In this document: in pieces, positions 1-64,000 of the stretch
How the letters are laid out: each line of letters opens with the position of its first letter
How positions within the stretch are numbered: the first letter of the stretch is position 1
Assembly (NCBI RefSeq): GCF_026241195.1
Contig: NZ_JAPFQO010000003.1
Location: 372,001-436,000, forward strand
Reading direction: 5' to 3'
DNA from: Pontibacter anaerobius
GTDB lineage: Bacteria > Bacteroidota > Bacteroidia > Cytophagales > Hymenobacteraceae
DNA length: 64,000 nucleotides
Notes under the pieces: model-generated
What the model was told of the DNA's origin: nothing
What the model saw: only the letters and a program-made list of their open reading frames with translations
The model's database searches: none
Program-made: the position numbers and the translations under genes

Positions 1-20
1 TTACGCTACTACACCTTACT

Positions 21-1250
21 ATGAGCCAGAGCCTCACCCTTAGCCACCCCACCGGTAAATTGAATGGAAGTATAAAACTGCCGGCTTCCAAAAGCGAGGC
101 CAACCGTGCCCTCATCATTGCGGCGCTGTCGGGACAGGAGTCGCAGCTGCACAACCTTTCCGAAGCCAACGATACCCAACTGTTGCAGCGCCTGCTGCAG
201 AGCGATGCCGAAACCATAGATGCCGAGGACGCCGGCACGGTGATGCGCTTCCTGACCGCCTATTACGCCGTTACCGGCCAGAAAAAGACGCTTACAGGCA
301 CGGACCGCATGTGCCAGCGGCCCATTAAAATTCTGGTGGAGGCGCTGCGGAAGTTAGGTGCAAATATAGATTACCTGGGAGAGGAGGGGTATCCACCTTT
401 AAAAATCAATGGTTTTACGGGCACCGGCCAAAAGCACCTGAAAGTCCGCAGCGACATCAGCAGCCAGTATATCTCGGCTTTGCTCATGATTGCGCCCCTG
501 CTGCCAGAGGGGCTGGAGCTGGAACTGGAAGGCAAAATCGGATCGCGGCCATACATTGAGATGACGCTCTCGCTGATGCAGCACTTTGGCGTAAGAGCTG
601 ATTTCTCCGGAAACACCATCTCTGTAAAGCCCCAAAAGTATACATGCGCAGCGTTTACGGTAGAGTCCGACTGGTCGGCGGCGAGCTATTGGTACAGTCT
701 GGTGGCGCTGGCAAATGAGGCGGAAATCACCCTGCTGGGCCTGAAAGAGCAATCGTTTCAGGGCGACCGGGCCATTGCGGACATTATGTACCGGCTGGGC
801 GTGTACACCGAGTTTACCGCAGAGGGGGTTCGGCTACTGAAAAAGGAGCACGAGCGGCACATTTCGTTAGACTTCTCGGATTGTCCGGACCTGGCGCAGA
901 CCGTGGTGGCTTTGTGTGCCGGCATTGGTGTAACCGTGGATATGACGGGGCTGGAAAGCTTGCGCATAAAAGAAACAGACCGCATTCAGGCCCTTCAGAT
1001 TGAGGTGCTAAGTATGAATTCGTCGCTGCGGGAGGTTACGCCGGGTGTTTTCCGCCTGGAGCCTGACATCCTCCAGAAAAAGCAACTGAGTTTCCGCACG
1101 TACCAGGATCACCGCATGGCCATGGCCTTTGCCCCGCTTGCCCTGCTGCAACCCGTGGAGATTCAGGAGCCGGGCGTGGTGCGCAAATCCTACCCAAGGT
1201 TTTGGGAGGACCTGGAGAAGGTGGGTTTTGAGATAAAGTATAAAATATAA
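21..1250 (+). CDS. aroA: 3-phosphoshikimate 1-carboxyvinyltransferase (EPSP synthase)
   Basis: Transfers the enolpyruvyl group of PEP to shikimate 3-phosphate in the cytoplasmic shikimate pathway. The 409-aa product is slightly shorter than the usual 420-430. Visible in order are LPASKSEANRALI at residues 20-32 (substrate-binding Lys and Ser), GTVMRFL at about 72, DCPDLAQT at about 287, RIKETDRI at about 315 and YQDHRMAMAFAP at about 361, the last being a family signature. The ATG lies 20 bases inside the window, so the gene looks complete, but its promoter is outside. A hypothetical gene follows 14 bases downstream. The spacer between them carries two copies of the recurrent AGTATA motif. 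Confidence 0.96.
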   Translation: MSQSLTLSHPTGKLNGSIKLPASKSEANRALIIAALSGQESQLHNLSEANDTQLLQRLLQSDAETIDAEDAGTVMRFLTAYYAVTGQKKTLTGTDRMCQRPIKILVEALRKLGANIDYLGEEGYPPLKINGFTGTGQKHLKVRSDISSQYISALLMIAPLLPEGLELELEGKIGSRPYIEMTLSLMQHFGVRADFSGNTISVKPQKYTCAAFTVESDWSAASYWYSLVALANEAEITLLGLKEQSFQGDRAIADIMYRLGVYTEFTAEGVRLLKKEHERHISLDFSDCPDLAQTVVALCAGIGVTVDMTGLESLRIKETDRIQALQIEVLSMNSSLREVTPGVFRLEPDILQKKQLSFRTYQDHRMAMAFAPLALLQPVEIQEPGVVRKSYPRFWEDLEKVGFEIKYKI

Positions 1251-1264
1251 AGTATAGCCGGCTT

Positions 1265-1789
1265 ATGCAGGAGCGGAAATTATACGGAGACGCCAGACTT
1301 ATAAAAGAGCGCCTGAACGAGATGCAGCTGATGGAAGAGGCGGCAGGCGGCTGGGCGGCTGTGTACAAGGATGCCGCTGCGGGCAGGTTCTGGATGAAGT
1401 GCTACACCACAGCCGGCGAGCAGTCTGACGGTGGCTACGAGCTGCTTATCAAATTGCCTCTGCCTTCCACAGGCGAGTTGATTGCTGCCGCGCTAGATTC
1501 CCCGTTTGAGGATGAGGCCGTGGCTGCTGTAATGCGGTTACTGGAGGAGGAGGCCGTGGAGAAAAAGGATTTTCGGGAGCAGCTGCTGCAGCAACTGGAG
1601 GCACCGGACCTGGCAAGTATAACCGATGAACAGAAGCAGCGGCTCCGGAAGATCATCACGCTTACTTCTTTAGCAGACCCTATGAACAAACGGGAGGTGA
1701 AAGGCAAGACCGCTGAAGAGGTGGAGGCAGACGCCGCATACTTCGAGGCGGTGTCGGAGCGGGCGCGAAAGCTGCTCCGGAAGTTGTAA
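1265..1789 (+). CDS. Hypothetical protein, probably co-transcribed with aroA
   Basis: I do not recognise this 174-aa protein. It is soluble: no signal peptide and no membrane segment. The N-terminal half mixes charged helices with a strand-rich stretch (residues about 28-65). The C-terminal half is rich in Glu, Lys, Leu and Ala and looks helical, with a short LTSLADPMNKREV segment near residue 135. It starts 14 bases after aroA on the same strand, so it probably shares its transcript. The long uninterrupted frame with normal codon use supports a real gene. No function is proposed. Confidence 0.75.
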   Translation: MQERKLYGDARLIKERLNEMQLMEEAAGGWAAVYKDAAAGRFWMKCYTTAGEQSDGGYELLIKLPLPSTGELIAAALDSPFEDEAVAAVMRLLEEEAVEKKDFREQLLQQLEAPDLASITDEQKQRLRKIITLTSLADPMNKREVKGKTAEEVEADAAYFEAVSERARKLLRKL

Positions 1790-1797
1790 CCTTAGTT

Positions 1798-2174
1798 CTG
1801 CCGCAAGTTTAGCGATAGCGCAAATGTGGGTATGCATGATGCAAGATTTCGACTTTCTTTCTGTGAAGCAGAAAAACAGGTAGTAGGTATAAGTATAAGG
1901 CAGTTGCAGGTGTTGTCTCGCTGTAGCGGATTTGTAACCACAGCTGTTCCGGATTTGCAATCCGGAACTCGGCTAGTAGCGGATTTGTAATCCGCGAGCT
2001 TGCTAGTAGCTGTTGCCTTTGCTACTGAAGATTACAAATCCGCTACAGCTGTGTATCCTCAAGCAAGCATAAGTATAGAGCTAATGCCGCTGCAGGTTTT
2101 GCTTTTGCAAAGCAAAGAAGCTGAAAGCTTCTGCCATGTACAACCACATTTCGCTATCGCTAAACTTGCGGCAG
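1798..2174. repeat. 377-base imperfect palindromic element with nested hairpins (REP/MITE-like)
   Basis: Bases 1798-1829 (CTGCCGCAAGTTTAGCGATAG...) recur in reverse complement at 2142-2173 with a one-base indel, giving terminal inverted repeats of about 32 bases. Inside lie smaller palindromes: TTCCGGATT-TGC-AATCCGGAA at 1947-1967, GCGGATT-TGT-AATCCGC at 1979-1995, and a TGTAGCGGATTTGTAA arm at 1922-1937 pairing with 2032-2047. Further imperfect complementarity runs between the arms. It fills the space between two convergent genes and has no convincing coding frame. No target-site duplication was found. The same core hairpin type recurs at 18091-18204. Confidence 0.75.
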
Positions 2175-2188
2175 TGCCAGATTTATAC

Positions 2189-2986
2189 TTATACCTCTAA
2201 CTCCCGCTTCACCTCCTCTACTACCTGCTGCAGGTAAGCAGGTGCTTTTACCAGTCTGCTGCCGTACCAGCTGAACATCTCGCCATCCACCACTTTTATA
2301 CTTGCCTGCGGGCACAGCTCCTGAAATTCCTGTATATGCTTCTCCTTAAAAGGATAGGGCTCCGAGGATAGAAGTATAAGCTGCGGAGCAGCCTGCTGCA
2401 GCTGTTCCGGCGAAATCTCGGGGTAGCGCTCCAGATCAGCGAAGACATTGGAAAACCCGCAGCGGCCCAGCATATGATCGATGATGTTGTGGCTGCCTAC
2501 GGCCATGTAAGGATTGCGCCAGATGAAATAAGACGTTTTTATACCTGGCTGCATCGGCTGCAGCTGCTCAAAACCAGCTTTTATACGTTGCTCCAGTTCT
2601 GCGGCTATGGCCTCGGTGCCGGTTAGCTGCCCCACCTGCTGCAGCATCTGCAGCGCATCCGCCAAAGTATAAATATCGCTCATCCATACCTTATACTTTG
2701 CCTGTAAAGCTTCAATGCCCTCCTTATAGTTCTCTTCTTTGTTGCCGATAATCAGGTCTGGCTGCAGTTCATCGATCTTATCGAAATGGAAATTCTTGGT
2801 GCCGCCGATCTTTACCTTTTGCTTTACCTGCTCTTTTGGGTGGATACAGAATTTGGTAACCCCTACAATCTTATCGGCTAAGCCAAGGTCAAATAAAAGC
2901 TCGGTTTGGGAAGGCACTAAAGAGACGATGCGCTGCGGGGGATGCGGCAGCATAATCTGGTGGCCCATTTGGTCAGTAAAAGTCAC
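2189..2986 (-). CDS. BtuF/TroA-like helical-backbone metal (cobalamin/siderophore) receptor protein, no signal peptide
   Basis: The 265-aa protein matches the periplasmic-binding-protein fold used by ABC importers of cobalamin, haem and iron-siderophores. The N-terminal PQRIVSLVPSQTELLFDLGL, then IVGVTKFC, DELQPDLIIGNKEEN at about 72-86, and LLSSEPYPFKEKH near 208 are typical of this family. Unusually it begins directly at MTFTDQMGH with no signal peptide or lipobox, so it is predicted cytoplasmic. Similar signal-less homologues exist in Bacteroidota. No permease or ATPase gene is adjacent. A role as a cytoplasmic cobalamin or metal binder is inference. Confidence 0.8.
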   Translation of the reverse strand: MTFTDQMGHQIMLPHPPQRIVSLVPSQTELLFDLGLADKIVGVTKFCIHPKEQVKQKVKIGGTKNFHFDKIDELQPDLIIGNKEENYKEGIEALQAKYKVWMSDIYTLADALQMLQQVGQLTGTEAIAAELEQRIKAGFEQLQPMQPGIKTSYFIWRNPYMAVGSHNIIDHMLGRCGFSNVFADLERYPEISPEQLQQAAPQLILLSSEPYPFKEKHIQEFQELCPQASIKVVDGEMFSWYGSRLVKAPAYLQQVVEEVKRELEV

Positions 2987-3039
2987 GGAGATAAAAGTAT
3001 AAATGGTTTTAAGCTATCTGAACATACGCAGGACCGGGC

Positions 3040-3084
3040 AGAAAAACAAAAACCTCACAGGCCAATGGTTGGCACTGCGAGGTT
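3040..3084 (-). terminator. Rho-independent terminator of the M42 peptidase gene
   Basis: On the minus strand AACCTC-GCAGTGCCAA pairs with TTGGCCTGT-GAGGTT around a CCA loop and is followed by TTTGTTTTT. It lies about 30 bases beyond the stop codon of the peptidase gene. Confidence 0.75.
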
Positions 3085-3112
3085 CTATATACTCGGCTAA
3101 AAGTATGAAATC

Positions 3113-4183: not shown

Positions 4184-4264
4184 GTGTAAGGTGGTGGTTG
4201 TTAAGTTAGCGTTTGATTTCATATTAGGCCCGTGCATCTTTAAAACTCACCCCTGCACACAGGC

Positions 4265-4272
4265 CAAAAGTA
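4265..4272 (-). promoter_or_regulatory. Candidate -7 element (TACTTTTG) for the M42 peptidase
   Basis: On the minus strand the octamer fits the Bacteroidota -7 consensus TAnnTTTG, about 30 bases before the most upstream ATG. No good TTTG is seen at the -33 position, so this is tentative. Confidence 0.4.
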
Positions 4273-4287
4273 TACTATAAGCTTTAA

Positions 4288-5847
4288 TTATAACGGAATG
4301 TTTCCGTGCTTCTTGCGTGGCAGCGTTACTGCCTTGTTTTCCAGCATCTTAAATGCCTTTATCAATTTAGCCCTGGTCTCTGATGGCATGATCACCTCGT
4401 CGATAAAGCCACGGTGGGCGGCACGATAAGGCGTGGCGAATTTCTCCTTATACTCCTGCACCTTCTCGGCCAGTTTTGCCTCCGGGTCCTCGGCGGTGGC
4501 GATCTCACGCTTAAAGATGATCTCGGCAGCGCCCTGCGCGCCCATTACGGCGATCTCGGCGGTTGGCCAGGCAAAGTTCATGTCGGCGCCGATGTGCTTG
4601 GAGTTCATCACGTCGTAAGCACCGCCGTAAGCCTTACGGGTAATCACCGTGATGCGCGGAACCGTGGCCTCGCAGAAGGCATATAGCAGCTTGGCACCGT
4701 TGGTAATGATGCCGCGCCACTCCTGGTCGGTGCCCGGCAGGAAGCCCGGAACATCTTCCAGCACCAGCAGCGGCACGTTAAAGCTGTCGCAGAAGCGCAC
4801 AAAGCGGGCGGCCTTGGTGCTGGCGTTAATGTCGAGCACACCGGCGAGCACGGCTGGCTGGTTCCCCACAATGCCTATACTTCTGCCACCCAATCGGGCA
4901 AAGCCCACCACAATATTATCTCCGAAGTTTTTGTGCACCTCAAAGAAGGAGTCTGCATCTATAATGCCCTCTATCACCTCACGGATGTCGTAAGGTTGGT
5001 TCGGGTTCTCCGGTATGATGGAATCGAGTACGTGGCGTGTTTCGTCGGCCTGCGGCTCGTATGGCAGCGATGGTGGCAGCTCCTCGCAGTTCTGCGGAAT
5101 GTAGCTGAGCAGTTTTTTGATGTAGGTGATGCACTCTACCTCGTTGGCGCAGGAGAAGTGCGTTACGCCGCTCTTGGTGCTGTGGGTGCTGGCGCCGCCC
5201 AGTTCCTCAGAGGTTACGTTCTCGTGCGTTACCGTTTTTACCACGTTTGGTCCGGTCACGAACATATAAGACGTGTCCTCCACCATCATGATAAAATCGG
5301 TGATGGCCGGGGAGTATACGGCACCGCCAGCGCATGGGCCCATGATGGCTGAAATTTGTGGGATAACGCCGGAGGCCAGCGTGTTGCGGTAGAAAATATC
5401 GGCATAGCCACCCAACGACACCACACCCTCCTGGATCCGCGCGCCGCCGGAGTCATTCAGGCCGATAACCGGGGCTCCGTTCTTCATCGCCAGCTCCATG
5501 ATCTTTACGATCTTCTCGGCGTGTGTCTCAGAGAGCGAACCGCCCAACACGGTAAAGTCTTGGGAGAAAACATACACCAGGCGGCCGTTGATGGTGCCGT
5601 AGCCGGTTACCACGCCATCGCCCAGGAAGTACTGCTTGTCCAGGCCGAAGTCCTTGGAGCGGTGCATCACAAACTTACCGATCTCCTCAAACGAGCCTTC
5701 ATCCATCAGCAGGTGTATACGCTCACGGGCGGTTAACTTGCCTTTTTTATGCTGTGCTTCAATTCTTTCCTTTCCACCGCCAAGTAAGGCTTCGGCATTT
5801 TTGCGCTCAAGGGTTTCTATCTGGGCCTGTCTGGTTTCTCCTGCCAT
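4288..5847 (-). CDS. pccB: Acyl-CoA carboxylase carboxyltransferase (beta) subunit, propionyl-CoA type
   Basis: The 519-aa protein is the carboxyltransferase subunit of a biotin-dependent acyl-CoA carboxylase. It moves CO2 from biotin to propionyl-CoA, giving methylmalonyl-CoA, in the cytoplasm. N-terminal crotonase-like half: [29 protein letters not shown] (oxyanion region) and [15 protein letters not shown]-terminal half: [37 protein letters not shown] and an ending KKHGNIPL, all typical. Length is normal. No biotin carboxylase or biotin-carrier gene is in the window, so its partner is encoded elsewhere. Methylmalonyl-CoA decarboxylase alpha subunit is the closest alternative. Confidence 0.93.
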
Positions 5848-5890
5848 GTTATGGATATAAATGTATGTACAGTTCTTAGGTTAGTTTCCT

Positions 5891-15482: not shown

Positions 15483-17813
15483 GTGCCGACCTATTCCATA
15501 CATATCGCAGGGCAAGTACAAGGAATTGGGTTCAGGCCCTATGCATATCGCCTTGCCAAAAAGTATGGCTTAAACGGCTGGGTAAGAAACCAGGCTGATG
15601 GCGTACATATGAAAGTGCAGGGACACGAGCAGCAGGTGCAAAGTTTTTACGAAGAACTAACCACACAGGCCCCTGACCTGGCCAAAATACAGTCTTCAAG
15701 TATAAAACAGGTAGAAAATAAAGTTTTTCAGGGCTTTGAGATACGGAAAGAAACAAAAGGCACTACGGCTAATTTAATGCTCACCCCAGACCTGGCTATG
15801 TGTGATGCCTGCCGCCAGGAGATGAATGATAGTAAGAACAGGCGCTTTGGCTATGCCTTTACCACCTGCACTTCCTGCGGACCCAGGTACTCTATCATGG
15901 CAAAGCTGCCTTATGAGCGGGAGCACACGACCATGGCTCCCTTTACGATGTGTGCAGCCTGCGAAAAAGAGTATCATGACCCGGAAAATCGCCGCTACTA
16001 CTCCCAAACCAACTCTTGCCCCGTCTGCCCTGTTACGCTCGGTTTGTATGATATGCAGCAGCAGTTACTATCAGATGATCAGCAGGAAAGTATAGCAGTC
16101 ACAGTAAACTTATTAGCAGCAGGTAAAATAGTAGCTGTAAAAGGTTTAGGCGGTTATTTGCTGATGGCAGATGCTACCAATGCACAAACCATTCAAACGC
16201 TGCGGGAAAGAAAACATCGTGCGGCCAAGCCTTTTGCCCTGATGTATCCTGACCTGGAAATGGCACAACAGGATGTGTTACTACAGGAAGATGAGCAAGA
16301 ACTGCTGCTTTCGTCAGTATCTCCCATAGTTTTAGCGCAGAAGAAAACAGAACCCGCTTCAGGAATAAAAGCTGATCTTATTGCTCCCCAACTAAACAAA
16401 CTTGGACTGATGCTGCCTTACACACCTTTGTTCGAATTGCTGTTAGCACAACTTCAGAAGCCGGTTATTGCAACCAGCGCCAACCGCCACGGGACCCACA
16501 TCATTTACAAAGACACAGATGCTTTTGAGCAATTAGCAAGTATAGCCGATTACATATTACTGCACAACAGAGAAATTCTGGTTTCGCAGGATGATTCTGT
16601 TGTACAGTTTACTCCCAAGCACCGCCAGCGAATCATGCTGCGCAGGTCACGTGGCTATGCTCCGTCTTTTGTAGGTGGAGCACCTGACCAACAGTCCTGG
16701 TTAGCCACAGGAGCAGACATGAAAAGCACCTTTGCCTTCACGACGCAAGGCAACAGTTACGTCAGCCAGTATTTAGGTGATCTGTCTGTTTATGATAACA
16801 CACTCAACTTCGAGCACAGCCTGCAGCATCTGAAAAAGCTTTTAGACTTCCACCCTTCCCTGCTCCTGACTGACAAGCATCCAGGTTATACTTCCGTGCG
16901 GCTTGGTAAAGAGCTGACGCAAAAGTATAAGGTGCCCCATGTGCAGGTGCAGCACCACGAAGCCCACTTTGCTGATGTATTAGCCGAAAATGAGCTGCTA
17001 AATAGTGATGAACCGGTACTGGGCGTGATCTGGGATGGCACCGGATATGGCAATGATAAGCTTATTCGGGGTGGAGAGTTTTTCCTGTATCAAGACCTGC
17101 AGATCTCTCCCTTAGCACAAATGGAACCCTACCCGCACCTGTCAGGCGACAAAATGGCGAAAGAGCCACGCCTTGCAGCCTTAGCGCTTTGCTTCGGTTT
17201 AAAAGACGCAGATATACTCATTAAGCCATACTTTACCGAAGCAGAATGGAAGTTTTACCAAAGTATACTTGATACCGATAAGTATAAACTGCAGACCACC
17301 AGCATGGGGCGTGAGTTCGATGCTGTAGCTGCACTTCTTGGCCTGTGTGGGCGCATGAGTTACGAAGGAGAAGCCGCCATGCTTTTAGAGTCTCTGGCTG
17401 CTCAGGAACCTGCTATTTATGATTTGCAGGATTATACACTTGCAGAATTTAACGGGAATGAAATACCCTTTAAAACTATACTTGGGCAGATGCTGGCAGA
17501 TGTTCGGCAAGGCGAAAACAAAGTAAGGATTGCGGCACGATTTCATGTGACGTTGGTTAAAATAGTGAGCCTGGTGGCAGAACACTACTCCATAAAAAAG
17601 CTGTCCTTTAGCGGTGGCGTATTTCAGAACAGCCTGCTCGTAGACTTGCTCATCGATAAGTTGTCACCTGAATTCAAACTATACTTTCACAAGCAGCTTT
17701 CGCCAAACGATGAATGCATTTCCTTTGGGCAACTGGCATGGATGCAACTGAAGTATAAAACAGTGGCTGCTCCAGAAGAACAGCACACAGTACATCATAC
17801 TCTAAAAATCTGA
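15483..17813 (+). CDS. hypF: Carbamoyltransferase HypF
   Basis: A 776-aa enzyme that uses carbamoyl phosphate and ATP to carbamoylate the C-terminal Cys of HypE, the first step in making the cyanide ligands of the Ni-Fe centre. Domains in order: acylphosphatase (residues 1-90, GQVQGIGFRPYAYRLA), two zinc-finger motifs (CDACRQEM, CTSCGPRY, CAACEKEY, CPVC; about 108-185), a YrdC-like nucleotide-binding domain (about 200-380, including KGLGGYLLM) and a Kae1-like domain (about 400-760, with HHEAHFADVLAE and FSGGVFQN). The start is GTG at 15483, six bases after hypB. Two bases separate it from hypC. Confidence 0.96.
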   Translation: MPTYSIHIAGQVQGIGFRPYAYRLAKKYGLNGWVRNQADGVHMKVQGHEQQVQSFYEELTTQAPDLAKIQSSSIKQVENKVFQGFEIRKETKGTTANLMLTPDLAMCDACRQEMNDSKNRRFGYAFTTCTSCGPRYSIMAKLPYEREHTTMAPFTMCAACEKEYHDPENRRYYSQTNSCPVCPVTLGLYDMQQQLLSDDQQESIAVTVNLLAAGKIVAVKGLGGYLLMADATNAQTIQTLRERKHRAAKPFALMYPDLEMAQQDVLLQEDEQELLLSSVSPIVLAQKKTEPASGIKADLIAPQLNKLGLMLPYTPLFELLLAQLQKPVIATSANRHGTHIIYKDTDAFEQLASIADYILLHNREILVSQDDSVVQFTPKHRQRIMLRRSRGYAPSFVGGAPDQQSWLATGADMKSTFAFTTQGNSYVSQYLGDLSVYDNTLNFEHSLQHLKKLLDFHPSLLLTDKHPGYTSVRLGKELTQKYKVPHVQVQHHEAHFADVLAENELLNSDEPVLGVIWDGTGYGNDKLIRGGEFFLYQDLQISPLAQMEPYPHLSGDKMAKEPRLAALALCFGLKDADILIKPYFTEAEWKFYQSILDTDKYKLQTTSMGREFDAVAALLGLCGRMSYEGEAAMLLESLAAQEPAIYDLQDYTLAEFNGNEIPFKTILGQMLADVRQGENKVRIAARFHVTLVKIVSLVAEHYSIKKLSFSGGVFQNSLLVDLLIDKLSPEFKLYFHKQLSPNDECISFGQLAWMQLKYKTVAAPEEQHTVHHTLKI

Positions 17814-22050: not shown

Positions 22051-22150
22051 AATATAAGTACCAGTTAATGTTACAGGGAGAGATGGCATTTACATGCTCT
22101 TTTCATGCTGTTATCATAGTCTGGTAAGTATACTTATACCTTCGGATAAG

Positions 22151-27599: not shown

Positions 27600-29615
27600 A
27601 TGAACTATACAGATAGAAAATCATACAGGAAGGCCATATCCAGTTTCTTGCTGACGGCCGCCACTATTGCAGGTTTCAGTGCGCCGGCCCTGGCGCAGGA
27701 ATCTCCTATGGAGGAGGATTACTTCAGGATTATGGGCGTTAGCTCTCCGGAAGGCGCGTTGCTGGAAGTGGGAGGCCTTACGGTGCTGCCATCAGGGGAC
27801 CTGGGCATTTCCACACGCCGCGGAGATGTTTACATTGTGGAGAACCCGACAAGCCAGCGGCCATACTTCCGTAAGTTTGCCACCGGCCTGCACGAGATCC
27901 TTGGCTTGGCTTATAAGGATGGCGCGCTGTACGCTGCCCAACGCGGAGAGCTTACGAAACTGGTTGACACGGACATGGACGGCAAGGCTGACAAGTATAA
28001 AACCGTTTATGCCTGGCCGATTTCGGGGCATTACCATGAGTACAGCTTTGGTCCAAAAATAGCCCCGGACGGTAGCTTTTTTGTTACCGGCAACGTGGCC
28101 TTTGGTGATGAGGAATGGTGGCGCGGCGAAAGCCGGGTGCCATGGCGTGGCTGGACGATGAAGATCAGTGAAGACGGCAAAATGGAGCCATGGGCTACAG
28201 GCATGCGCTCCCCGGCAGGGCCAGGTGTTATTGATGGAGAGCTGTTTTATACAGACAACCAGGGAGATTGGATGGGCTCAGGCGGGCTTTGGCACGTAAC
28301 GAAGGGATCATTTACTGGGCACCCTGCAGGCTTGCGCTGGAGCAACATGCCAAACTCACCGGTTAAAACGACGGAGGAGCAACTATTCGCGCAAGTGGAC
28401 CAACGCAAGGTAAGGGGGGAGAACGGACGATACATCAAGCCAGAGAACGTGGTAGATGAAGAGTTCAAGATGCTTTACGAGGTTAAAGAGGCTATTCCTG
28501 AACTGCGCCTGCCGGCCGTGTGGTTGCCTCATGGTATACTAGGGGTATCTAACTCAGAGCCGATTAAGATTCCGGAAGAGAACTTCGGTCCATTTGGCGG
28601 ACAGGTATTGGTAGGTGACCAGGGCATGAGCCTTATTTCACGTGTGTTCCTGGAGAAAGTGAATGGAGAGTTTCAGGGAGCTGCCTTCCTGTTCCGGACC
28701 GGTTTTCAGTCGGGTGTGCTCCGCATGGCCTGGGCCAAAGATGGCTCCCTGTTTGTAGGGGAGACAAATCGTGGATGGGGCTCGGCTGGTGATGCCAACC
28801 AGGGACTGCAACGCCTGGTATGGAACAACAGAGTCCCATTCGAAATGAGAGCGGTGCGTGCTATGCCGGATGGGTTTGAAATTGAGTTTACCAAACCTGT
28901 TGATAAGAAATCTGCAGAGAACCCAGAGTCTTACAGTGTGTCGAGCTTCATTTACAAATACCACCCGGTTTACGGAAGCCCTCCTGTGAACACAGAAGAG
29001 TGTACTGTAAAGGGAGTCAAAGTATCGGAAGATGGAATGAAGGCCCGTATAGTGGTGGATAATCTGCGCCGCTATTATATCCACAACATCACCCTTGGCG
29101 GAGTACGGGAGCGGGACAATTCCCACTCACTGGTGCACCCCACAGCATACTACACGCTGAACAACATCCCGGAAGGGCAGAAGCTGTCACTAAGTGAACT
29201 GAGCACCAAAAGCACTGCTGCGGCAACTACGAAGAAAGCAACTGGGGCAAAAAAAGCTACAACTTCAAAAAGAGCCGCTACGGCTAAGCCTGCTACGAAA
29301 AAAGCAACTGCCAGCGCTACTGCTAAATCTGCCGCACCAACATACAACGAGGTGAAGGGCTTGCTGGCAAAGTATACTTGCCTTGCCTGCCATACCACAG
29401 ATAAACGTCAGGTTGGCCCGGCTTATGTGGATGTGGCTAAACGCGGTTACACACCGGAAAAAATTGTGGAGCTGATCCATAACCCGGAGCCTGAGAACTG
29501 GCCGGATTATGCCACGGAAATGCCACCTATGCCACAGGTGCCGAAGGAGGATGCCCTCAAGATCGCCAAATGGATCAACTCGCTTGCCCCAGCCGGCAAA
29601 GGTGCTTCTAAATAA
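27600..29615 (+). CDS. Sorbosone-dehydrogenase-like beta-propeller with C-terminal cytochrome c domain
   Basis: A secreted 671-aa protein. A signal peptide ends near APALAQ (residue about 33). A six-bladed propeller of the L-sorbosone dehydrogenase/PQQ-like family spans about 45-420 (GLTVLPSGDLGISTRRGDVY, AWPISGHYHEYSFGP, TDNQGDWMGSGGLWH, FQSGVLRMAWAKDGSLFVG). Next come a Fn3-like region and a Lys/Ala/Thr-rich linker encoded at about 29200-29335. A mono-haem cytochrome c domain follows, with CLACH at about 598 and the Met-rich EMPPMPQVP as likely axial ligand source. It would oxidise a sugar and pass electrons to the cytochrome. The frame opens upstream at 27537, but the ATG at 27600 carries the signal peptide. 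Confidence 0.9.
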   Translation: MNYTDRKSYRKAISSFLLTAATIAGFSAPALAQESPMEEDYFRIMGVSSPEGALLEVGGLTVLPSGDLGISTRRGDVYIVENPTSQRPYFRKFATGLHEILGLAYKDGALYAAQRGELTKLVDTDMDGKADKYKTVYAWPISGHYHEYSFGPKIAPDGSFFVTGNVAFGDEEWWRGESRVPWRGWTMKISEDGKMEPWATGMRSPAGPGVIDGELFYTDNQGDWMGSGGLWHVTKGSFTGHPAGLRWSNMPNSPVKTTEEQLFAQVDQRKVRGENGRYIKPENVVDEEFKMLYEVKEAIPELRLPAVWLPHGILGVSNSEPIKIPEENFGPFGGQVLVGDQGMSLISRVFLEKVNGEFQGAAFLFRTGFQSGVLRMAWAKDGSLFVGETNRGWGSAGDANQGLQRLVWNNRVPFEMRAVRAMPDGFEIEFTKPVDKKSAENPESYSVSSFIYKYHPVYGSPPVNTEECTVKGVKVSEDGMKARIVVDNLRRYYIHNITLGGVRERDNSHSLVHPTAYYTLNNIPEGQKLSLSELSTKSTAAATTKKATGAKKATTSKRAATAKPATKKATASATAKSAAPTYNEVKGLLAKYTCLACHTTDKRQVGPAYVDVAKRGYTPEKIVELIHNPEPENWPDYATEMPPMPQVPKEDALKIAKWINSLAPAGKGASK

Positions 29616-44745: not shown

Positions 44746-47445
44746 ATGAAAAGAACCACCTTCAAGTCAAGTATACTTTTCACCCTTATGGCCTTGGGTG
44801 CCTGCCAGTCGCAGAAGCCTGCGGCCGAGGTTGGCAGAAGCGCCATCTGGCAGTCGGAAGCTTACACTATCTACCCTGACAGCGTGGTGCAGGGGGAATT
44901 TGTGGCGCGCGTACTGTCGCCCACAGAGCTGACCTCAAACTACAAGAGCCCGGCTAACGCCTTCCAAAGCCCACGCGTTACGTTCAAGTTCGCCATCAAC
45001 GGCCGCGACAACGAGATGAAGTCCGGCACCGACCACCACTTCAACTGCCTCGGCGGCGACTGCCAGACCCCTGTCATCACTTTCGGGCAGCAGTTTAACG
45101 ACTCAACCCAGGTGCCCAACGATGTATACCTGGCACCCAACACCGAGATGACGGTGCGCCTGGACATGCGCCCGGTGCTGGAGGCTTTCGAGAAGCAGGG
45201 GTTTTATACTTCGGCCACGGGAGATAAGATCTATAAAGAGGATTTCAAGGGCGTATACATTGCAGGTAACACCGCGCCACTGAGCTGGGACTTCGACAAC
45301 CTGGGCGGAAAAAAGGAGGCGGAACTGCAGGACCCGGACGGTAACGGCATCTACGAGATCACCCTCACGCTCAACTCCCCAAAGGATGACAAATCTACCG
45401 CCACCCGTTGGGAGCTGACAAAAGATGTGGCCGCCTTCCCGCAGTATACTTCCACTTACCCGGTTAGCGATGCGCTGTACAACCTGGCGCTGGAGGAGAT
45501 GGTAAATGCCGTGGAGCCAGACAGCACCTTCCGGACGGGCAAAGAGTGGGCTGGCGTCTGGACCCGTGATATCAGCTACAGCATTATCCTGAGTATGGCG
45601 CAGCTGCAGCCTAAAGTTTCTAAGTATAGTCTGATGCGCAAGGTGAAGGATGGCCGTATTGTGCAGGACACCGGCACGGGGGGGGCTTACCCTGTCTCCA
45701 CGGACCGCATGGTTTGGGCCGTGGCTGCCTGGGAGGTTTACAAAGCAGCCGGCGACGAGCAGTGGCTGCGCGATACCTACGCCATCATCAAAAAATCCCT
45801 GGAGGAGGATTACTTGAACGCCTACGATTCTGAAACAGGCATGGTGCGCGGCGAATCATCGTTCCTGGACTGGCGCGAGCAGACCTACCCGCTCTGGATG
45901 CAGCCCGCCGATATTTATGAGTCTGAGAACCTGGGCACGAACGCCGTGCATTACCAAGCGAACCTGGTGGCCGCAAAGATGGCGGAACTACTGAACGACA
46001 AGGAGGCCATCGCTCAGTTTGAGCAGGTAGCCCAGGGTATAAAGGAGGGTATAAACAAGCTGCTGTGGCAGGAGGAGAAAGGCTATTACGGGCAGTACCT
46101 GTATGGGCGCAACTATGCCGTGCTGTCGCCGAAGGCAGAGGCTTTGGGCGAGGCGCTGAGCGTGCTGTACGGCGTGGCGGATACCGACCGTAGCAAGACC
46201 ATTGTGGCTAGCACGCCCGTAACCGATTACGGCATTCCGAGCATTTACCCACAGATACCCGGCATCCCGCCCTACCATAACAATGGCATCTGGCCTTTTG
46301 TGCAAGCCTATTGGAGCCTGGCGGCGGCCAAGGCCGGCAACGAAGAAGCCCTCACCGAAAGCATCAGTGCCATCTACCGCCCGGCTGCCCTGTTCCTGAC
46401 TAACAAGGAGAATTTTGTGGCTAGCAACGGCGACTACGCCGGCACGCAGATAAACTCCAGCAACATGCTCTGGAGCCTGGCCGGTAACCTGAGTATGGTG
46501 TACAAAGTGTTCTTTGGGATGAACTTTGAGGCCGATAAAATCGTGCTGAAGCCGTTTGTGCCGAAGGCCTTCGGCGGAGACCGCAAACTGACCAACTACA
46601 AGTATAGAAATGCGGTGTTGAACTTTGAGATGAGCGGCTATGGCAACGAGATCAAGTCGATCACCATGGATGGCAAGCCGCTGGAGAACGCTGAGATACC
46701 GGCAAGTATAACCGGCGAGCACAACATCAAGATTGAATTGGCAAACAAAGAGGCAGGAGGGGAGAGCAACCATACCGTGGATTATACTGCGCCAGACATG
46801 CCAAGGGTAAGCTATACTCCCAGCAAGCTCAGCTGGCCAACCGTGGAGGGTGCCATGGCTTACCAGGTGCTGAGAAACGGGGAGGAACTGGAGAAAACGG
46901 AGAGCACCAGCCTACAGGTAGATGCCAATGGCTACGCCGAGTATATGGTAATGGCAGTGGATGGGAACGGGGTAACCTCTTTTGGCAGCGAGCCCGTGGC
47001 AGTGGTGCCCGACAAGTATAAACTGGTGTACGAGCTGGAGAAATCTGCCCCCAAGGCCAGGCTGCCGTACCGAGATTTCTCCGGCACCGGCTTCGTGGAG
47101 ATCAGCAAGAAACAGAACATAAGTATAAAAGTAAGCATCACCGTGGCAGAGGATGGTGTGTACGCCATCGATTTCCGCTACGCCAACGGCAACGGCCCGA
47201 TCAACACTCAGAATAAAGCAGCCATCCGTACGCTTAAGAAAGACGGCGAGTTTGCAGGTACTATCGTGCTGCCGCAGCGTGGCACGGATGAGTGGAACAA
47301 CTGGGGCTTCACCAACACCGTGGAAGTGCCGCTGCAGAAGGGTAGCCATACCTTCACGCTCTCTTTTGAGCCGCACAACGAGAACATGAACGGCGAGGTG
47401 AACCAGGCTATGGTGGATTACATGCGCGTGGTTAAGATCAGGTAG
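44746..47445 (+). CDS. GH63/MGH1-like (alpha/alpha)6-barrel glycosidase lipoprotein
   Basis: An 899-aa lipoprotein with lipobox LGAC at about residue 20. Residues about 25-220 are a beta-rich N-terminal domain. Residues about 230-640 form a glucosidase/trehalase-type helical barrel (EWAGVWTRDISYSIILS, GGAYPVSTDRMVWAVAAWEVYK, VRGESSFLDWREQTYPLWM, YPQIPGIPPYHNNGIWPFVQAYWS, GTQINSSNMLWSLAGNLSM). Acidic residues in TRDIS and FLDWRE are candidate catalytic ones. The C-terminal region (about 680-899) holds a Fn3-like part and a CBM35-like domain. It could be an alpha-glucosidase or alpha-mannosidase acting on glycans; the exact family is not certain. The frame opens 24 bases upstream. Confidence 0.82.
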   Translation: MKRTTFKSSILFTLMALGACQSQKPAAEVGRSAIWQSEAYTIYPDSVVQGEFVARVLSPTELTSNYKSPANAFQSPRVTFKFAINGRDNEMKSGTDHHFNCLGGDCQTPVITFGQQFNDSTQVPNDVYLAPNTEMTVRLDMRPVLEAFEKQGFYTSATGDKIYKEDFKGVYIAGNTAPLSWDFDNLGGKKEAELQDPDGNGIYEITLTLNSPKDDKSTATRWELTKDVAAFPQYTSTYPVSDALYNLALEEMVNAVEPDSTFRTGKEWAGVWTRDISYSIILSMAQLQPKVSKYSLMRKVKDGRIVQDTGTGGAYPVSTDRMVWAVAAWEVYKAAGDEQWLRDTYAIIKKSLEEDYLNAYDSETGMVRGESSFLDWREQTYPLWMQPADIYESENLGTNAVHYQANLVAAKMAELLNDKEAIAQFEQVAQGIKEGINKLLWQEEKGYYGQYLYGRNYAVLSPKAEALGEALSVLYGVADTDRSKTIVASTPVTDYGIPSIYPQIPGIPPYHNNGIWPFVQAYWSLAAAKAGNEEALTESISAIYRPAALFLTNKENFVASNGDYAGTQINSSNMLWSLAGNLSMVYKVFFGMNFEADKIVLKPFVPKAFGGDRKLTNYKYRNAVLNFEMSGYGNEIKSITMDGKPLENAEIPASITGEHNIKIELANKEAGGESNHTVDYTAPDMPRVSYTPSKLSWPTVEGAMAYQVLRNGEELEKTESTSLQVDANGYAEYMVMAVDGNGVTSFGSEPVAVVPDKYKLVYELEKSAPKARLPYRDFSGTGFVEISKKQNISIKVSITVAEDGVYAIDFRYANGNGPINTQNKAAIRTLKKDGEFAGTIVLPQRGTDEWNNWGFTNTVEVPLQKGSHTFTLSFEPHNENMNGEVNQAMVDYMRVVKIR

Positions 47446-59793: not shown

Positions 59794-60023
59794 GCCTCAA
59801 CTACATTTCCTTCCTCAGAGGGGTTAGGGGTGGGTTATGCTATGAGTAGAACCACCCTGACATAAAGTATAACACACTGCAATGGAGCGGGCACTGCATG
59901 TGTACGCAAAATTGCGGAGACCAAAGTATGACAAAGTATACATGCAGCCGTAAAAGCCTGTATTTATACTTTGTTTATATGTTACATCCACTCCACTTCA
60001 GGAGTAGAACCTTATTTTAGAGC

Positions 60024-61181
60024 ATGTCGAAAAAACTACGCTTAGGTATGATTGGCGGCGGGCAGGGAGCCTTTATAGGCGCTGTTCACCGGATTGCGCT
60101 GCAAATGGACGGAGAGTATGAGCTTGTCTGCGGCGCTTTTAGTAGTAACCCTGAAAAATCGAAAGCGAGCGGAGAACTGCTGGGGCTTAAGCCGGAGCGG
60201 GTATACACCTCCTACCACGAATTATTTGAGCGTGAGCTGCAGTTGCCCGAAGACCAGCGGGTACAGGTCATCAGTATCGTTACGCCGAACCATGTGCACT
60301 TTGAGCCAGCCAAGCTTGCGCTGGAGAATGGCTTCCATGTGGTGCTGGATAAGCCCATGACCTTTACTTTGCAGGAAGCGCTGGAACTGCGCAAAGTGGC
60401 CGAGGCCTCTGGCAAGCGCTTCTGCCTTACCCATACTTATACCGGTTACCCCATGGTGAAAGAGGCCCGACAAGTGGTGGCTTCCGGTAAGCTCGGCAAA
60501 ATCAGGAAAGTTTACGTGGAGTACCCGCAGGGCTGGCTGAGCCGGTTTGAGGAGGGCAGCGACAACAAGCAGGCCTCCTGGCGCACCGACCCGAACCAAA
60601 GCGGTATAGCCGGCGCCATGGGCGATATCGGTACCCACGCCTTTAACCTGGCGGAGTACGTGAGCGGGCTTTCCGTTACAAAACTCTGTGCCGATATAAA
60701 CATTGTGGTGGAAGGCCGCCAACTGGACGACGACGGTGCTGTGCTGCTAAAGTTTGACAACGGGGCCAGCGGTGTGCTGATAGCAACCCAGGTGGCAGCC
60801 GGCGAAGAGAACAACGTAAAGATACGCGTGTACGGAGAGCACGGCGGTGTAGAGTGGCAGCAAAGCGACGAAAACACCATGCTCCTGAAGTGGCTGGATA
60901 AGCCTGTAGAAGTATGGCGCACCGGCACTGGCTACGTCAGCTCTTACGCACAGCATAACTCCCGCACCCCGGCCGGACACCCGGAAGGCTACCTGGAGGC
61001 CTTTGCCAACCTGTACCGTAACTTTGCCCTTTGCATTCAGGCAGACCTTGCCGGCAAAGAGCCGCAGCCGGAGTGGCTGGACTACCCGGGTATGGAAGAA
61101 GGCGTTCGCGGCATGGCTTTTATTGAACAAGTCATCGCCTCAGGCAAATCAGACCAGAAATGGACGAACTTTAGCATCTAA
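60024..61181 (+). CDS. Gfo/Idh/MocA-family oxidoreductase, cytoplasmic (module B)
   Basis: A 385-aa NAD(P)-dependent sugar oxidoreductase with no signal peptide. LRLGMIGGGQGAFIGAVHRIA is the nucleotide-binding glycine motif, and the family Lys appears in VVLDKPMTFTLQEA near residue 113. GIAGAMGDIGTHAFNLAEYV provides the usual substrate-site Asp and His. It is five bases upstream of the TIM-barrel gene, so the two are an operon. Together they may interconvert a 3-keto sugar and its reduced form in the cytoplasm; myo-inositol-type substrates are an alternative. Confidence 0.92.
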   Translation: MSKKLRLGMIGGGQGAFIGAVHRIALQMDGEYELVCGAFSSNPEKSKASGELLGLKPERVYTSYHELFERELQLPEDQRVQVISIVTPNHVHFEPAKLALENGFHVVLDKPMTFTLQEALELRKVAEASGKRFCLTHTYTGYPMVKEARQVVASGKLGKIRKVYVEYPQGWLSRFEEGSDNKQASWRTDPNQSGIAGAMGDIGTHAFNLAEYVSGLSVTKLCADINIVVEGRQLDDDGAVLLKFDNGASGVLIATQVAAGEENNVKIRVYGEHGGVEWQQSDENTMLLKWLDKPVEVWRTGTGYVSSYAQHNSRTPAGHPEGYLEAFANLYRNFALCIQADLAGKEPQPEWLDYPGMEEGVRGMAFIEQVIASGKSDQKWTNFSI

Positions 61182-61186
61182 AAACT

Positions 61187-62242
61187 ATGAATACAATCAA
61201 AGGACCCGCACTATTTATTGCCCAGTTTATACAGGATCAGGCACCGTTCAACAACCTGAAAGATATCAGCAAATGGGCTGCAGACCTGGGATACAAAGGC
61301 ATACAGATTCCATCGCATGACCCACGCTTTATAGACCTGCAGAAGGCCGCAGAGAGCAAGACCTATGCCGATGAGGTGAACGGCATTGTGAAAGAGGCCG
61401 GAATCCAGATCACGGAGCTTTCCACACACCTGCAGGGGCAGTTGGTGGCCGTTCACCCGACCTACGATGCCCTGTTTGATGGTTTTGCCCCGGAGGCATA
61501 CCGCAACAACGCTAAAGCCAGAACCGAGTGGGCTGTGCAGCAACTGAAGTATGCGGCCAAAGCCTCTAAGAATCTGGGCCTGAACGCCTGCGCCACGTTT
61601 AGCGGGGCCTTGCTATGGCCGATGGTATACCCGTGGCCACAGCGTCCGGCCGGCCTGGTAGAAACTGGCTTTAAAGAGCTAGGGAAACGTTGGTTGCCTA
61701 TCCTGAACGAGTTTCAGGAAAACGGTGTGGACCTATGCTATGAACTCCACCCGGGGGAGGACCTGCATGATGGCATTTCTTATGAGATGTTCCTGGATGA
61801 GGTGCACCAGCACCCGAGCGCCTGTGTGCTCTACGATCCGTCCCACTTCGTGCTTCAGGCGATGGATTACCTGTCTTTCATCGACCACTATCACGAGCGT
61901 ATCAAAATGTTCCATGTGAAAGATGCCGAGTTTAATCCTACCGGTAAGCAGGGCGTGTACGGCGGCTACCAGAGCTGGGTAAACCGCGCCGGCCGCTTCC
62001 GCTCCCTGGGCGACGGGCAGGTAGACTTTACCGGCGTTTTCAGCAAGCTCACGCAGTATGACTATAAAGGCTGGGCCGTGCTGGAGTGGGAGTGCGCCCT
62101 GAAGCACCCTGAGGATGGAGCCCGCGAAGGTGCGCCGTTCATCCAAAACCACATCATCCGGGTAACCGAAAGGGCCTTCGATGATTTTGCCGCTTCCGGA
62201 GTGGATGAGAGCAAGAACAAAGAGCTGCTAGGCTTATCTTAA
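61187..62242 (+). CDS. Xylose-isomerase-like TIM-barrel sugar isomerase/epimerase (module B)
   Basis: A 351-aa cytoplasmic metal-dependent enzyme of the AP-endonuclease-2/IolE-type barrel. Metal ligands are likely the Glu in YELHPGEDLHDG, the Asp/His in LYDPSHFVLQ, the His in KMFHVKDAEF and the Glu in AVLEWECALKHPEDG. No signal peptide is visible. It begins five bases after the Gfo/Idh gene and precedes the cytochrome gene by 32 bases. Related enzymes in keto-glycoside pathways act as lyases, hydratases or epimerases of 3-keto sugars, which fits the cluster, but the reaction is not readable from sequence. Confidence 0.92.
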   Translation: MNTIKGPALFIAQFIQDQAPFNNLKDISKWAADLGYKGIQIPSHDPRFIDLQKAAESKTYADEVNGIVKEAGIQITELSTHLQGQLVAVHPTYDALFDGFAPEAYRNNAKARTEWAVQQLKYAAKASKNLGLNACATFSGALLWPMVYPWPQRPAGLVETGFKELGKRWLPILNEFQENGVDLCYELHPGEDLHDGISYEMFLDEVHQHPSACVLYDPSHFVLQAMDYLSFIDHYHERIKMFHVKDAEFNPTGKQGVYGGYQSWVNRAGRFRSLGDGQVDFTGVFSKLTQYDYKGWAVLEWECALKHPEDGAREGAPFIQNHIIRVTERAFDDFAASGVDESKNKELLGLS

Positions 62243-62274
62243 GAAGAACACCATACAAACACATACTTTGAATT

Positions 62275-62775
62275 ATGAAAAAGAATCTACTCATACTTGG
62301 CTGCCTGGCTTTTACCCTAGCCTGCGGCAACTCTTCTGATAATGCAGCAGAAGAGGCTAGCGTGCCGGAAGAAGGAACTTACAGCGCTAACGGAGAAATG
62401 GACTCCACCTCAGGGGCGGCGGTAAGCGCTGCGTCCAAACAGTCAGAAGTTGATACCAATAGAATGGACATCGGGAACGACCGCACGGAAGGCGGAGCAA
62501 TTGCAGCAGGCGGCAACTATGAAAACGGGGCCAAGCTCATTGCAGCCTCCGATTGCCTTTCCTGCCACCAGGAAGAGAAAAAGCTGGTAGGCCCATCTTA
62601 TGTAGAGGTTGCCGGAAAGTATGAGATGAACGACAAGAACGTGGATTACCTGGCAGACAAAATTATTAAGGGTGGCGCCGGAGTATGGGGCCAGGTGCCC
62701 ATGACGCCGCACCCTACCATTGAAAAAGAGGATGCCAAGGAAATGGCCCGTTATATCTTATCGCTAAATAAATAA
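62275..62775 (+). CDS. Cytochrome c-type mono-haem lipoprotein (module B)
   Basis: A 166-aa lipoprotein with lipobox TLAC (Cys near residue 17), then an acidic, Ser/Ala/Glu-rich spacer of about 65 residues. The C-terminal cytochrome c domain has haem site SDCLSCHQEEKKLVGPSY (CLSCH) and a likely Met ligand in VPMTPHPTI. It is a natural electron acceptor for the GMC dehydrogenase of the same cluster (inference). It is six bases upstream of the DUF1080 gene. Confidence 0.93.
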   Translation: MKKNLLILGCLAFTLACGNSSDNAAEEASVPEEGTYSANGEMDSTSGAAVSAASKQSEVDTNRMDIGNDRTEGGAIAAGGNYENGAKLIAASDCLSCHQEEKKLVGPSYVEVAGKYEMNDKNVDYLADKIIKGGAGVWGQVPMTPHPTIEKEDAKEMARYILSLNK

Positions 62776-62781
62776 CCGCAC

Positions 62782-63525
62782 ATGCTGAAAAACTACATTG
62801 CAGCCCTGGCCATACTCACTTTGGCAGGCTGCCAGTCAACTGAATCGGAAAACACAATGGCAGAAAACGATCAGAACCAGCAGGTAGAAGCTGAAGGAGA
62901 GTGGATCTCACTTTTCGACGGCAAAACCACCAACGGCTGGCACACCTATGGCAAAGACTCTGTTGGCAGAGCCTGGGTGATAGACGACGGAGCCCTGCAC
63001 CTGGATGCCTCTAATAAAAAGGACTGGCAGACAAGCGACGGCGGCGACATTGTGACGGAGGAGGAGTTTGAGGACTTCCACCTGGAACTGGAGTGGAAAG
63101 TAGCCGAGAACGGCAACAGCGGCATTATCTTCTATGTGAAGGAGGATACCGCTAAGTATGATTACACCTGGAACACAGGCCTGGAAATGCAGGTACTGGA
63201 TAACAACGGGCACCCGGATGCGAAGATCGAGAAGCACCGCGCAGGCGACCTTTACGACCTGATTGCCAGCAGCCCTGAAACCGTGAAGCCAGCGGGAGAG
63301 TGGAACAAAGCGGAGATCATCAGCGATAACGGCCAACTTGTTTTTCACCTGAACGGAGAGAAAGTGCTGGAGACAACCCTGTGGGATGACAACTGGCGCC
63401 AGATGGTGGCAGGCAGCAAGTTTGCCGACATGGAGAACTGGGGCACCTTCCGCTCCGGTAAGATCGCGATACAAGACCACGGCGATAACGTGTGGTACCG
63501 CAACATCCGCATCAAACGATTATAA
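62782..63525 (+). CDS. DUF1080 (3-keto-disaccharide hydrolase family) lipoprotein (module B)
   Basis: A 247-aa lipoprotein with lipobox TLAGC (Cys near residue 15). The DUF1080 domain shows WISLFDGKTTNGWHTYG, GDIVTEEEFEDFHLELEWK, AENGNSGIIFYVKEDT, LEMQVLDNNGHPDAK, FHLNGEKVLETTLWDDNW and KIAIQDHGDNVWYRNIRI. It is close to the 29776 copy. It follows the cytochrome gene by six bases and would cleave keto-glycosides made by the module's dehydrogenase. Confidence 0.92.
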   Translation: MLKNYIAALAILTLAGCQSTESENTMAENDQNQQVEAEGEWISLFDGKTTNGWHTYGKDSVGRAWVIDDGALHLDASNKKDWQTSDGGDIVTEEEFEDFHLELEWKVAENGNSGIIFYVKEDTAKYDYTWNTGLEMQVLDNNGHPDAKIEKHRAGDLYDLIASSPETVKPAGEWNKAEIISDNGQLVFHLNGEKVLETTLWDDNWRQMVAGSKFADMENWGTFRSGKIAIQDHGDNVWYRNIRIKRL

Positions 63526-63561
63526 GCCTCATAAAAATCTCATCCTTAATACACCGCAACC

Positions 63562-64000
63562 ATGAATTCGGTAACCCGCATTAAACTTTCTACCATGATG
63601 TTCCTGGAGTTCTTCATCTGGGGCGCATGGTTTGTTACCTTAGGCACCTTTCTGGGCAACAACCTAAAGGCAACAGAACTTGAAACAGCCAGTGTGTTCT
63701 CCACACAATCCTTCGGAGCGATCATCGCCCCCTTCATCATCGGACTTATTGCAGATAAGTACTTTAATGCAGAGAGGATTCTGGGGGTACTGCACCTGGT
63801 AGGCGCTTTCCTGATGTATCAGATGTATAACGCTGATAATGTTGGGGCCTTCTATCCTTACGTGCTGGCCTATATGATTGCTTACATGCCCACGCTTGCC
63901 CTGGTAAACTCCGTTTCGTTCCGCCAGATGCGTAATCCGGAGAAAGAGTTCTCCGTGATCAGGGTATGGGGTACTATCGGCTGGATTGCTGCCGGTTTAT
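63562..64000 (+). CDS. MFS sugar or nucleoside permease, truncated by window end
   Basis: The first 146 codons of a major-facilitator transporter. It begins MNSVTRIKLSTMMFLEFFIWGAW, which resembles the NupG/nucleoside-H+ symporter branch. Four hydrophobic segments are visible, with GLIADKYFNAERIL as the loop-2 signature and FRQMRNPEKEFSVIRVWGTIGWI further on. It starts 36 bases after the DUF1080 gene in module B, so it probably imports the pathway product across the inner membrane. The 3-prime end is outside the window. Confidence 0.88.
   Translation, partial: MNSVTRIKLSTMMFLEFFIWGAWFVTLGTFLGNNLKATELETASVFSTQSFGAIIAPFIIGLIADKYFNAERILGVLHLVGAFLMYQMYNADNVGAFYPYVLAYMIAYMPTLALVNSVSFRQMRNPEKEFSVIRVWGTIGWIAAGL

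Follow-up and report, generated by a model that had tools for sequence, protein, structure and literature searches.

Two families of Proteobacteria, both of which use type IV pili, are known to take up self DNA guided by a sequence tag. In one of these, the Pasteurellaceae, the uptake signal sequence (USS) has an iterated asymmetric core, occurs in dialects and carries AT-rich flanking tracts at fixed spacing; its uptake is pilus-based, and in the known USS case cells prefer their own DNA. Other short over-represented words are Chi and the FtsK-orienting polar sequences (KOPS), whose readers are DNA translocases or helicases; known Chi and KOPS are polar relative to replication, and Chi sites are mostly coding. 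For the Neisseriaceae, passages of PMC3630211 describe dialects of the DNA uptake sequence (DUS) that share a constant CTG, and one genome in which two dialects are nearly equal in number. In parts of PMC2397512, DUS are further described as strongly conserved within core regions that are permissive, and as missing from genes of recent acquisition. The highly iterated palindrome HIP1 of cyanobacteria and its alternates (HIPs) are, in the portions of PMC4390886 on which we rely, replaced in a species-specific manner, present at ~500-2500 per Mb and accompanied by matching methylases, and deviations from HIP1 sit on its outer bases. Here we analyze the word AAGTATA (TATACTT on the opposite strand) in 64,000 nucleotides of Pontibacter anaerobius (Bacteroidota; RefSeq assembly GCF_026241195.1, contig NZ_JAPFQO010000003.1, positions 372,001 to 436,000), a stretch that we call the window, and in related genomes. 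Iterated words that have dialects belong to an established class of elements; this one lies in another phylum, is AT-rich, reaches very high numbers and apparently lacks a type IV pilus to serve it. Among the matches listed from openly licensed PubMed Central papers, there was no report of an iterated word in Pontibacter.

The excess of AAGTATA is confirmed. The window holds 104 copies, while 100 dinucleotide shuffles gave a mean of 5.27 and a maximum of 14; a second-order Markov model predicts 9.6, and AAGTATA is the most over-represented 7-mer. As a control for whole genomes, we used the word read backwards. In the complete P. anaerobius genome (4.65 Mb in 29 contigs), AAGTATA occurs 8,810 times (4586 + 4224) and the control 385 times (188 + 197). 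We also considered coding DNA in 284 kb of this genome, i.e., the window and a further 220 kb. Its coding copies (182 on the gene strand and 130 on the opposite strand, 312 in total) make use of every reading frame and are about seven times as numerous as after synonymous codons were shuffled within genes (30.2 + 13.9, or ~44). An earlier note on the window had proposed that the word be dismissed if it showed no excess over a Markov or codon-preserving null; the excess stands strongly under both. That note's hand count of about 34 AGTATA or TATACT sites in the first 10 kb was accurate (35 by machine, with 4.5 expected), and its remarks on coding usage also hold: the window's called genes use AGT-ATA for 26 of their 67 Ser-Ile pairs, and 5 of 44 called genes have the motif at most 12 nt from their end.

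We next turn to related genomes, where the earlier note had suggested looking for the same motif. AAGTATA was counted in 204 genomes of the family, and 50 Pontibacter genomes were compared, P. anaerobius being included in both sets. The strong excess is confined to part of Pontibacter, and sister genera have little or none (at most ~2.4 times the control); Pontibacter genomes outside that part often carry another word. Whole-genome counts reveal a strong dialect in 39 of the 50 Pontibacter genomes, sampled DNA reveals one in two more, and nine are without a visible one. The AAGTATA dialect is found in 23 genomes, at 8.8-38.5 times the control, and an AGGTATA dialect in 12, at 17.7-38.4 times. 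A third spelling, AACTATA, reaches 13,168 copies in genome G030 and more than 12,500 in each of G018, G212 and G206. Some genomes have two dialects, with AACTATA and AAGTATA counts, respectively, of 11,674 and 5,110 (G211), 8,118 and 7,552 (G026), 6,094 and 9,116 (G032), and 3,531 and 10,614 (G217). Strong dialects run at ~820-3030 per Mb. In orthologous 15-20 kb stretches of 49 genomes, the top words were mostly AAGTATAA, AGGTATAG or AACTATAG and words that overlap them. The protein of the gene that anchors these stretches, an acyl-CoA carboxyltransferase, is 93-98% identical in the 12 nearest of 80 named loci, all of which are Pontibacter.

The TATA core is common to all spellings. At base +8, a purine is preferred and T is avoided in the AAG, AGG and AAC dialects, and tables of flanking context show no further fixed pattern around the word, nor AT tracts at fixed spacing like those of USS. 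The AGG contexts come from 12 orthologous stretches that are not independent, so the scattered AT peaks among them are not interpretable.

Dialects are consistent with the phylogeny, following it through switches with two-dialect intermediates. In a tree of 52 taxa, built from seven genes of which some are missing in some genomes, all 12 AGGTATA genomes fall into a single clade (support 1.0) whose neighbor is an AAGTATA genome. Those with AACTATA make up a derived group, in which mixed genomes branch before pure ones. The branching of the mixed genomes is roughly ordered by AACTATA content, with the exception that G211 (11,674 copies) branches before G026 (8,118), and inner nodes among the mixed genomes are weakly supported (0.48-0.91). 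AAGTATA is the ancestral spelling.

Additional DNA was sampled from a clade that has lost AAGTATA, and it contains two further spellings, ATATATA and GGGTATA. In G215, ATATATAA occurs 71 times in 120 kb, versus 8.3 expected, and is present in all six stretches; in G036, GGGTATA occurs 83 times versus 14.3, and GGTATA and AGGTATA are raised too. The extra DNA showed no dominant word in G023, nor in G210 taken with G024. No dominant dialect was seen in G002, G007, G023, G024, G025, G027, G033, G210 and G214; for all of these except G210 and G023 the basis is 15-20 kb of DNA and whole-genome counts of three words, so a dialect could have gone unseen in them. A weak residue of AAGTATAA is found in G023 and in G033, G002 and G007 pooled. 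We rejected the top words of the named loci L074, L082 and L067, and AATTATGA in G206, because they form local arrays rather than dispersed words; the last is a 7-bp tandem array at a contig end (start of contig C29, L124:1-134).

The earlier note had described the word as similarly dense across the window, in coding and non-coding DNA alike. This is not the case. In the 284 kb, the density is 4.37 per kb outside called genes and 1.34 per kb within them, where the calls are simple open reading frame (ORF) calls and "outside genes" therefore takes in some uncalled coding DNA. Within the window, the density varies sixfold, from 3.29 per kb (40.0-48.5 kb) down to 0.52 per kb (48.5-64 kb). To consider placement more broadly, we sampled two chromosomes, G030 (stretches L149-L168) and G021, each in 20-kb stretches at 20 places. 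Across these samples and the 284 kb, the word is 2.7-3.3 times denser outside genes than inside. On the two chromosomes, its density is highest in spacers between convergent genes (11.4 and 7.0 per kb) and lowest between divergent genes (3.2 and 3.8), and it peaks directly after stop codons. Outside genes there is no bias between leading and lagging strands, as assigned by the sign of GC skew in each 20-kb stretch (222/219 in G030 and 173/157 in G021). Inside genes, orientation follows the gene in G030 (410/224) and hardly does so in G021 (177/157). Per stretch, motif skew in G021 correlates with GC skew (rho 0.51, p 0.02) and more closely with gene strand (rho 0.59); G030 shows a correlation with gene strand (rho 0.70) but not with GC skew (rho 0.08).

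Copies may be scarce in acquired DNA, judging from two motif-poor stretches. One, L182 of G021, is a clear mobile island of low G+C content, with genes for a TraG/TraD-type coupling protein (conjugation), DUF5712, HTH_21 and GmrSD; it has 5 copies, versus 26-49 in the 19 other G021 stretches. The other, L160, is the poorest stretch of G030 (11 copies) and has HipA, AbiEii and RadC genes among ordinary ones. No Rfam match was found in L160, L182 or L138, a locus of the P. anaerobius genome. Separately, spacers of G030 contain a repeated element in which a purine-rich arm, AGGGGCAGGGG, and a pyrimidine-rich arm, GCTCCTTCCCC, surround two AACTATA words 19-20 bp apart. Only part of the 32 AACTATA pairs listed at this spacing in 400 kb of G030 lie in this element.

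Sites are conserved even though they lie in permissive regions, as was described for DUS. Between sister species with the same dialect, 664 of 889 aligned motif sites are kept, versus 1260 of 2852 for shuffled words, while the 100-bp flanks of motif sites are slightly less conserved than those of controls (identity 0.840 versus 0.850, p 0.008). The 13 pairs compared were each read both ways, and some genomes belong to two pairs, so the sites are not all independent. In three-species comparisons, the loss rate in the AAG and AGG dialects is half that of controls (55/421 versus 403/1472). Gains are about twice as frequent as in controls (15/461 versus 459/31660) and involve nine combinations of position and base. 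However, we give this excess little weight because motif-less genomes also exhibit a twofold excess (2/78). Of the 123-151 AACTATA sites that could be aligned to each of five AAG relatives, with four related focal genomes pooled, 16-24 are AAGTATA in the relative. Similarly, 61 of 363 AGGTATA sites aligned to G006 are AAGTATA there, far above other one-base neighbors (focal genomes pooled). Old sites have thus been re-spelled in part in place. Most words that differ from the motif by one base are themselves enriched, at most positions, with a few at 0.7-1.0 of expectation. The dominant tolerated variant is AAGTATG (7.8 times expectation), and the sole strongly depleted neighbor is the one that contains CTAG.

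Given these patterns, we tentatively propose that the word works like a DUS, i.e., as a tag of self DNA for natural transformation. We hold such a role the most likely because the word has dialects with a constant core, two-dialect genomes, conserved sites in permissive regions and scarcity in one mobile island; the enrichment at gene ends and the lack of strand polarity also fit this role best. The Neisseriaceae DUS resembles the Pontibacter word in its thousands of dispersed asymmetric copies, its phylogeny-following dialects that differ by few bases around a constant core, its near-equal two-dialect genome, its enrichment outside genes and in permissive DNA, and its conservation; the scarcity of DUS in acquired DNA has a possible counterpart in the mobile island. 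There are also differences. The Pontibacter word has 7-9 bp and is AT-rich, whereas DUS have 10-12 bp. Its copies, up to ~13,000, are more numerous than those of DUS, and their density is close to the highest reported for DUS (5918 in 2.4 Mb). Unlike in DUS systems, closely spaced inverted pairs are a minority, nothing points to sites born by recombination, no ATPase of a type IV pilus was found and no ComP-like receptor is known.

We infer that the word affects uptake, that one protein with changing specificity drives the dialects, and that the apparatus is pilus-free and of the type found in Riemerella. In this mechanism, a protein of the uptake apparatus would contact both the TATA core, which is constant, and the 5' triplet, which varies, and DNA with the local spelling would enter more readily and recombine more often. 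Such a preference would ratchet the word up throughout the genome, mostly where it is least harmful, namely gene ends and tolerant codons. Drift of the reader's specificity by one base would then lead to a slow genome-wide re-spelling, in part by one-base conversion of old sites, and hence to dialects. With somewhat more reserve, we suggest that Pontibacter might read self DNA without a type IV pilus, in a Bacteroidota system independent of those in Neisseriaceae and Pasteurellaceae, whose receptor shifts one base at a time, causes thousands of sites to be re-spelled and splits the genus into DNA "language" groups.

Several observations weigh against an uptake role. ComEC is present in all 50 Pontibacter genomes, and it does not track the motif because all nine motif-less genomes likewise have an open copy, and it is broken by an internal stop in both G022 and the strong-dialect G009 and shorter in G018. 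(The single internal stops are in G022:C1:2771217-2771876 and G009:C76:160505-161305; G022 has the lowest AAGTATA ratio among the strong AAGTATA genomes.) There is no proper ATPase of a type IV pilus or type II secretion system, since PF00437 has only short, weak matches in the 50 genomes, just over the cut-off in three. With ComEC present and no recognizable pilus ATPase, uptake would need a pilus-free route. The domain DUF5689, a candidate from the surface of Riemerella, has no link to the motif, as it occurs in 22 of the 50 genomes (17 of 39 with a strong dialect and 5 of 9 without a motif) and is absent from P. anaerobius. No receptor for the word was identified in Pontibacter. In AACTATA triplets, where data are few, losses are not reduced (19/103 for both sites and controls). 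There is also no sign that sites are born by recombination: unshared sites have one versus two or more mismatches in 114 and 87 cases, and controls in 855 and 647, a small sample and a criterion that is not strictly required of DUS, yet one that lowers the claim. Finally, a palindrome, ACCTAGGT, is iterated in the same family, and it looks like HIP1 rather than DUS. As for the missing pilus ATPase, it need not exclude uptake because Riemerella, also in the Bacteroidota, transforms with other proteins; published passages name ComEC, DprA, ComF and RecA, together with several proteins of unknown role. Riemerella columbina prefers its own DNA, and the k-mer count of those authors, in the portion of PMC7965970 that treats it, gave only A/T-rich words.

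The strongest rival is a process like that of HIP1, in which the word carries the mark of an orphan DNA methyltransferase, and methylation-guided repair or selection creates and keeps it. We regard this explanation as serious, albeit unlikely. In addition to the ACCTAGGT palindrome, which is more HIP-like than the Pontibacter word, it draws on the fact that HIPs, too, are highly iterated at similar density and are replaced by another word in some species. Overlapping opposite-strand copies are also more common than they should be: palindromes account for 5.6% of AAGTATA sites in P. anaerobius (15 palindromes, 533 sites), versus ~0.7% expected from flank frequencies, and in G030, 1076 sites include 46 exact overlaps outside genes and most of 36 short inverted pairs inside genes. 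However, HIPs are palindromic and tied to methylases, whereas the Pontibacter unit is asymmetric and mostly single, with ~6% of P. anaerobius sites in AAGTATACTT. Its dialects are one to three bases apart, share a constant core and have mixed intermediates, rather than being swaps of unrelated words, and its one-base neighbors are enriched at most positions, with AAGTATG dominant, rather than on the outer bases. No methylase was identified for the word, and no search aimed at methylases was made. The possibility that a recombination enzyme of the AddAB type reads the word as a Chi-like signal is disfavored, as is a KOPS-type role; we consider the Chi-like signal improbable. Chi sequences do differ between lineages, and an AddB-like ORF (PF12705, ~970-1020 aa) is present in 50 of 50 genomes. 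That ORF, however, is equally present in motif-less genomes, known Chi octamers are several times less dense than the Pontibacter word, and the word lacks replication polarity outside genes in both chromosomes, unlike known Chi and KOPS. The same lack of a strand layout relative to replication argues against a binding site for a chromosome-organizing or nucleoid protein, to which we assign a similarly low probability. Sites that are dispersed, frequent and conserved would suit such a protein, as would the direct pairs at a spacing of 19-20 in G030 (31 pairs outside genes), although part of these pairs belongs to the one repeated spacer element. We know of no chromosome-organizing protein for which thousands of sites were rapidly re-spelled.

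A bias in mutation or mismatch repair, e.g., a Vsr-type enzyme that rewrites one mismatch, could produce a functionless word; this is mostly refuted and, in our estimation, very unlikely. The Vsr family PF03852 matches 43 of the 50 genomes, and gains of sites are about twice those of controls. Yet there is no match in six of the 39 strong-dialect genomes (G029, G006, G019, G009, G026 and G217) and a match in 8 of the 9 motif-less ones. Moreover, the 15 gains start from nine position-and-base combinations, their excess is weak given that motif-less genomes share it, one-base neighbors are mostly enriched (a few are at 0.7-1.0 of expectation, and only the CTAG-containing one is strongly depleted), and losses in the AAG and AGG dialects are halved. 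The Vsr-family gene itself, which encodes an endonuclease of ~170 aa, lies at L138:5266-5772 (contig C1) in P. anaerobius, with similar genes in most Pontibacter; its score and matched range set this type apart from the classical Vsr matches found in some species, and within the AACTATA group a match of the weaker type is found only in G212. The remaining possibility is that codon usage, amino-acid pairs or base composition underlies the excess. ATA does represent 25% of the Ile codons in long ORFs of P. anaerobius. However, the excess over synonymous shuffles, the higher density outside genes, the weak or missing excess in sister genera and the different words of sister clades leave this explanation with a negligible probability, and we rejected it on the basis of the shuffles and the sister clades. 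The earlier note had likened the word to HIP1 and DNA-uptake sequences, which was apt; of the functions it offered, the pattern fits uptake best, and repair of the Vsr type is unsupported.

Positions within the window are collected in Table 1. Carbohydrate-use genes lie in its motif-poor segments, and housekeeping genes in the first motif-rich segment.

Table 1. AAGTATA and associated features in the 64-kb window (position 1 is its first nucleotide).
Feature	Position	Strand	Details
AAGTATA copies in genes and spacers	1..64000	71 on +, 33 on -	104 copies
Motif-rich segment	1..18000		47 copies, 2.61/kb; housekeeping: EPSP synthase, acyl-CoA carboxyltransferase, MltG, NADH dehydrogenase subunit, HypF
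Acyl-CoA carboxyltransferase gene	4288..5847	-	anchor for orthologous 15-20 kb stretches in 49 other Pontibacter genomes
AAGTATACTT	17261..17270		two overlapping opposite-strand motifs forming a palindrome on the TATA core
AAGTATACTT, further palindromes	22126-22135, 29370-29379, 44769-44778		total of 4 in the window
Motif-poor segment	25000..40000		13 copies, 0.87/kb; TonB-dependent (SusC-like) receptor, GMC oxidoreductase and 3-keto-disaccharide hydrolase genes
Motif-rich segment	40000..48500		28 copies, 3.29/kb
Motif-poor segment	48500..64000		8 copies, 0.52/kb; carbohydrate-use genes: GH2-like, aldose epimerase, GH92, glycoside 3-dehydrogenase-like

The family also contains iterated words outside Pontibacter. 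In genus g25, which is probably Hymenobacter given the named locus L026 (Hymenobacter cavernae), the counts of the ACCTAGGT palindrome and of its control are 3262 and 16 in G081 (~200 times the control), 1815 and 19 in G087, 1867 and 32 in G174, 492 and 0 in G139, and 450 and 0 in G155. The palindrome is weaker in G221, G222 and G225 (genus g27), and the rest of the family has at most tens of copies per genome. Another possible iterated word is GCCCCCCA, with 18 copies in L023 (Hymenobacter sp. BT188), where it is dispersed, and 13 in L022 (H. qilianensis), in 21.5 kb with 0.7 expected.

If the uptake reading is true, the family would have a second language in the ACCTAGGT palindrome. With its five spellings, its mixed intermediates and sister species that lack the motif, Pontibacter, a harmless and cultivable environmental genus of Bacteroidota, offers a natural experiment. 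It could be tested there whether the word keeps species from exchanging genes. Whatever the function of the word, the genus permits a direct test of how a DNA language comes to span a genome, how it drifts and how it disappears.

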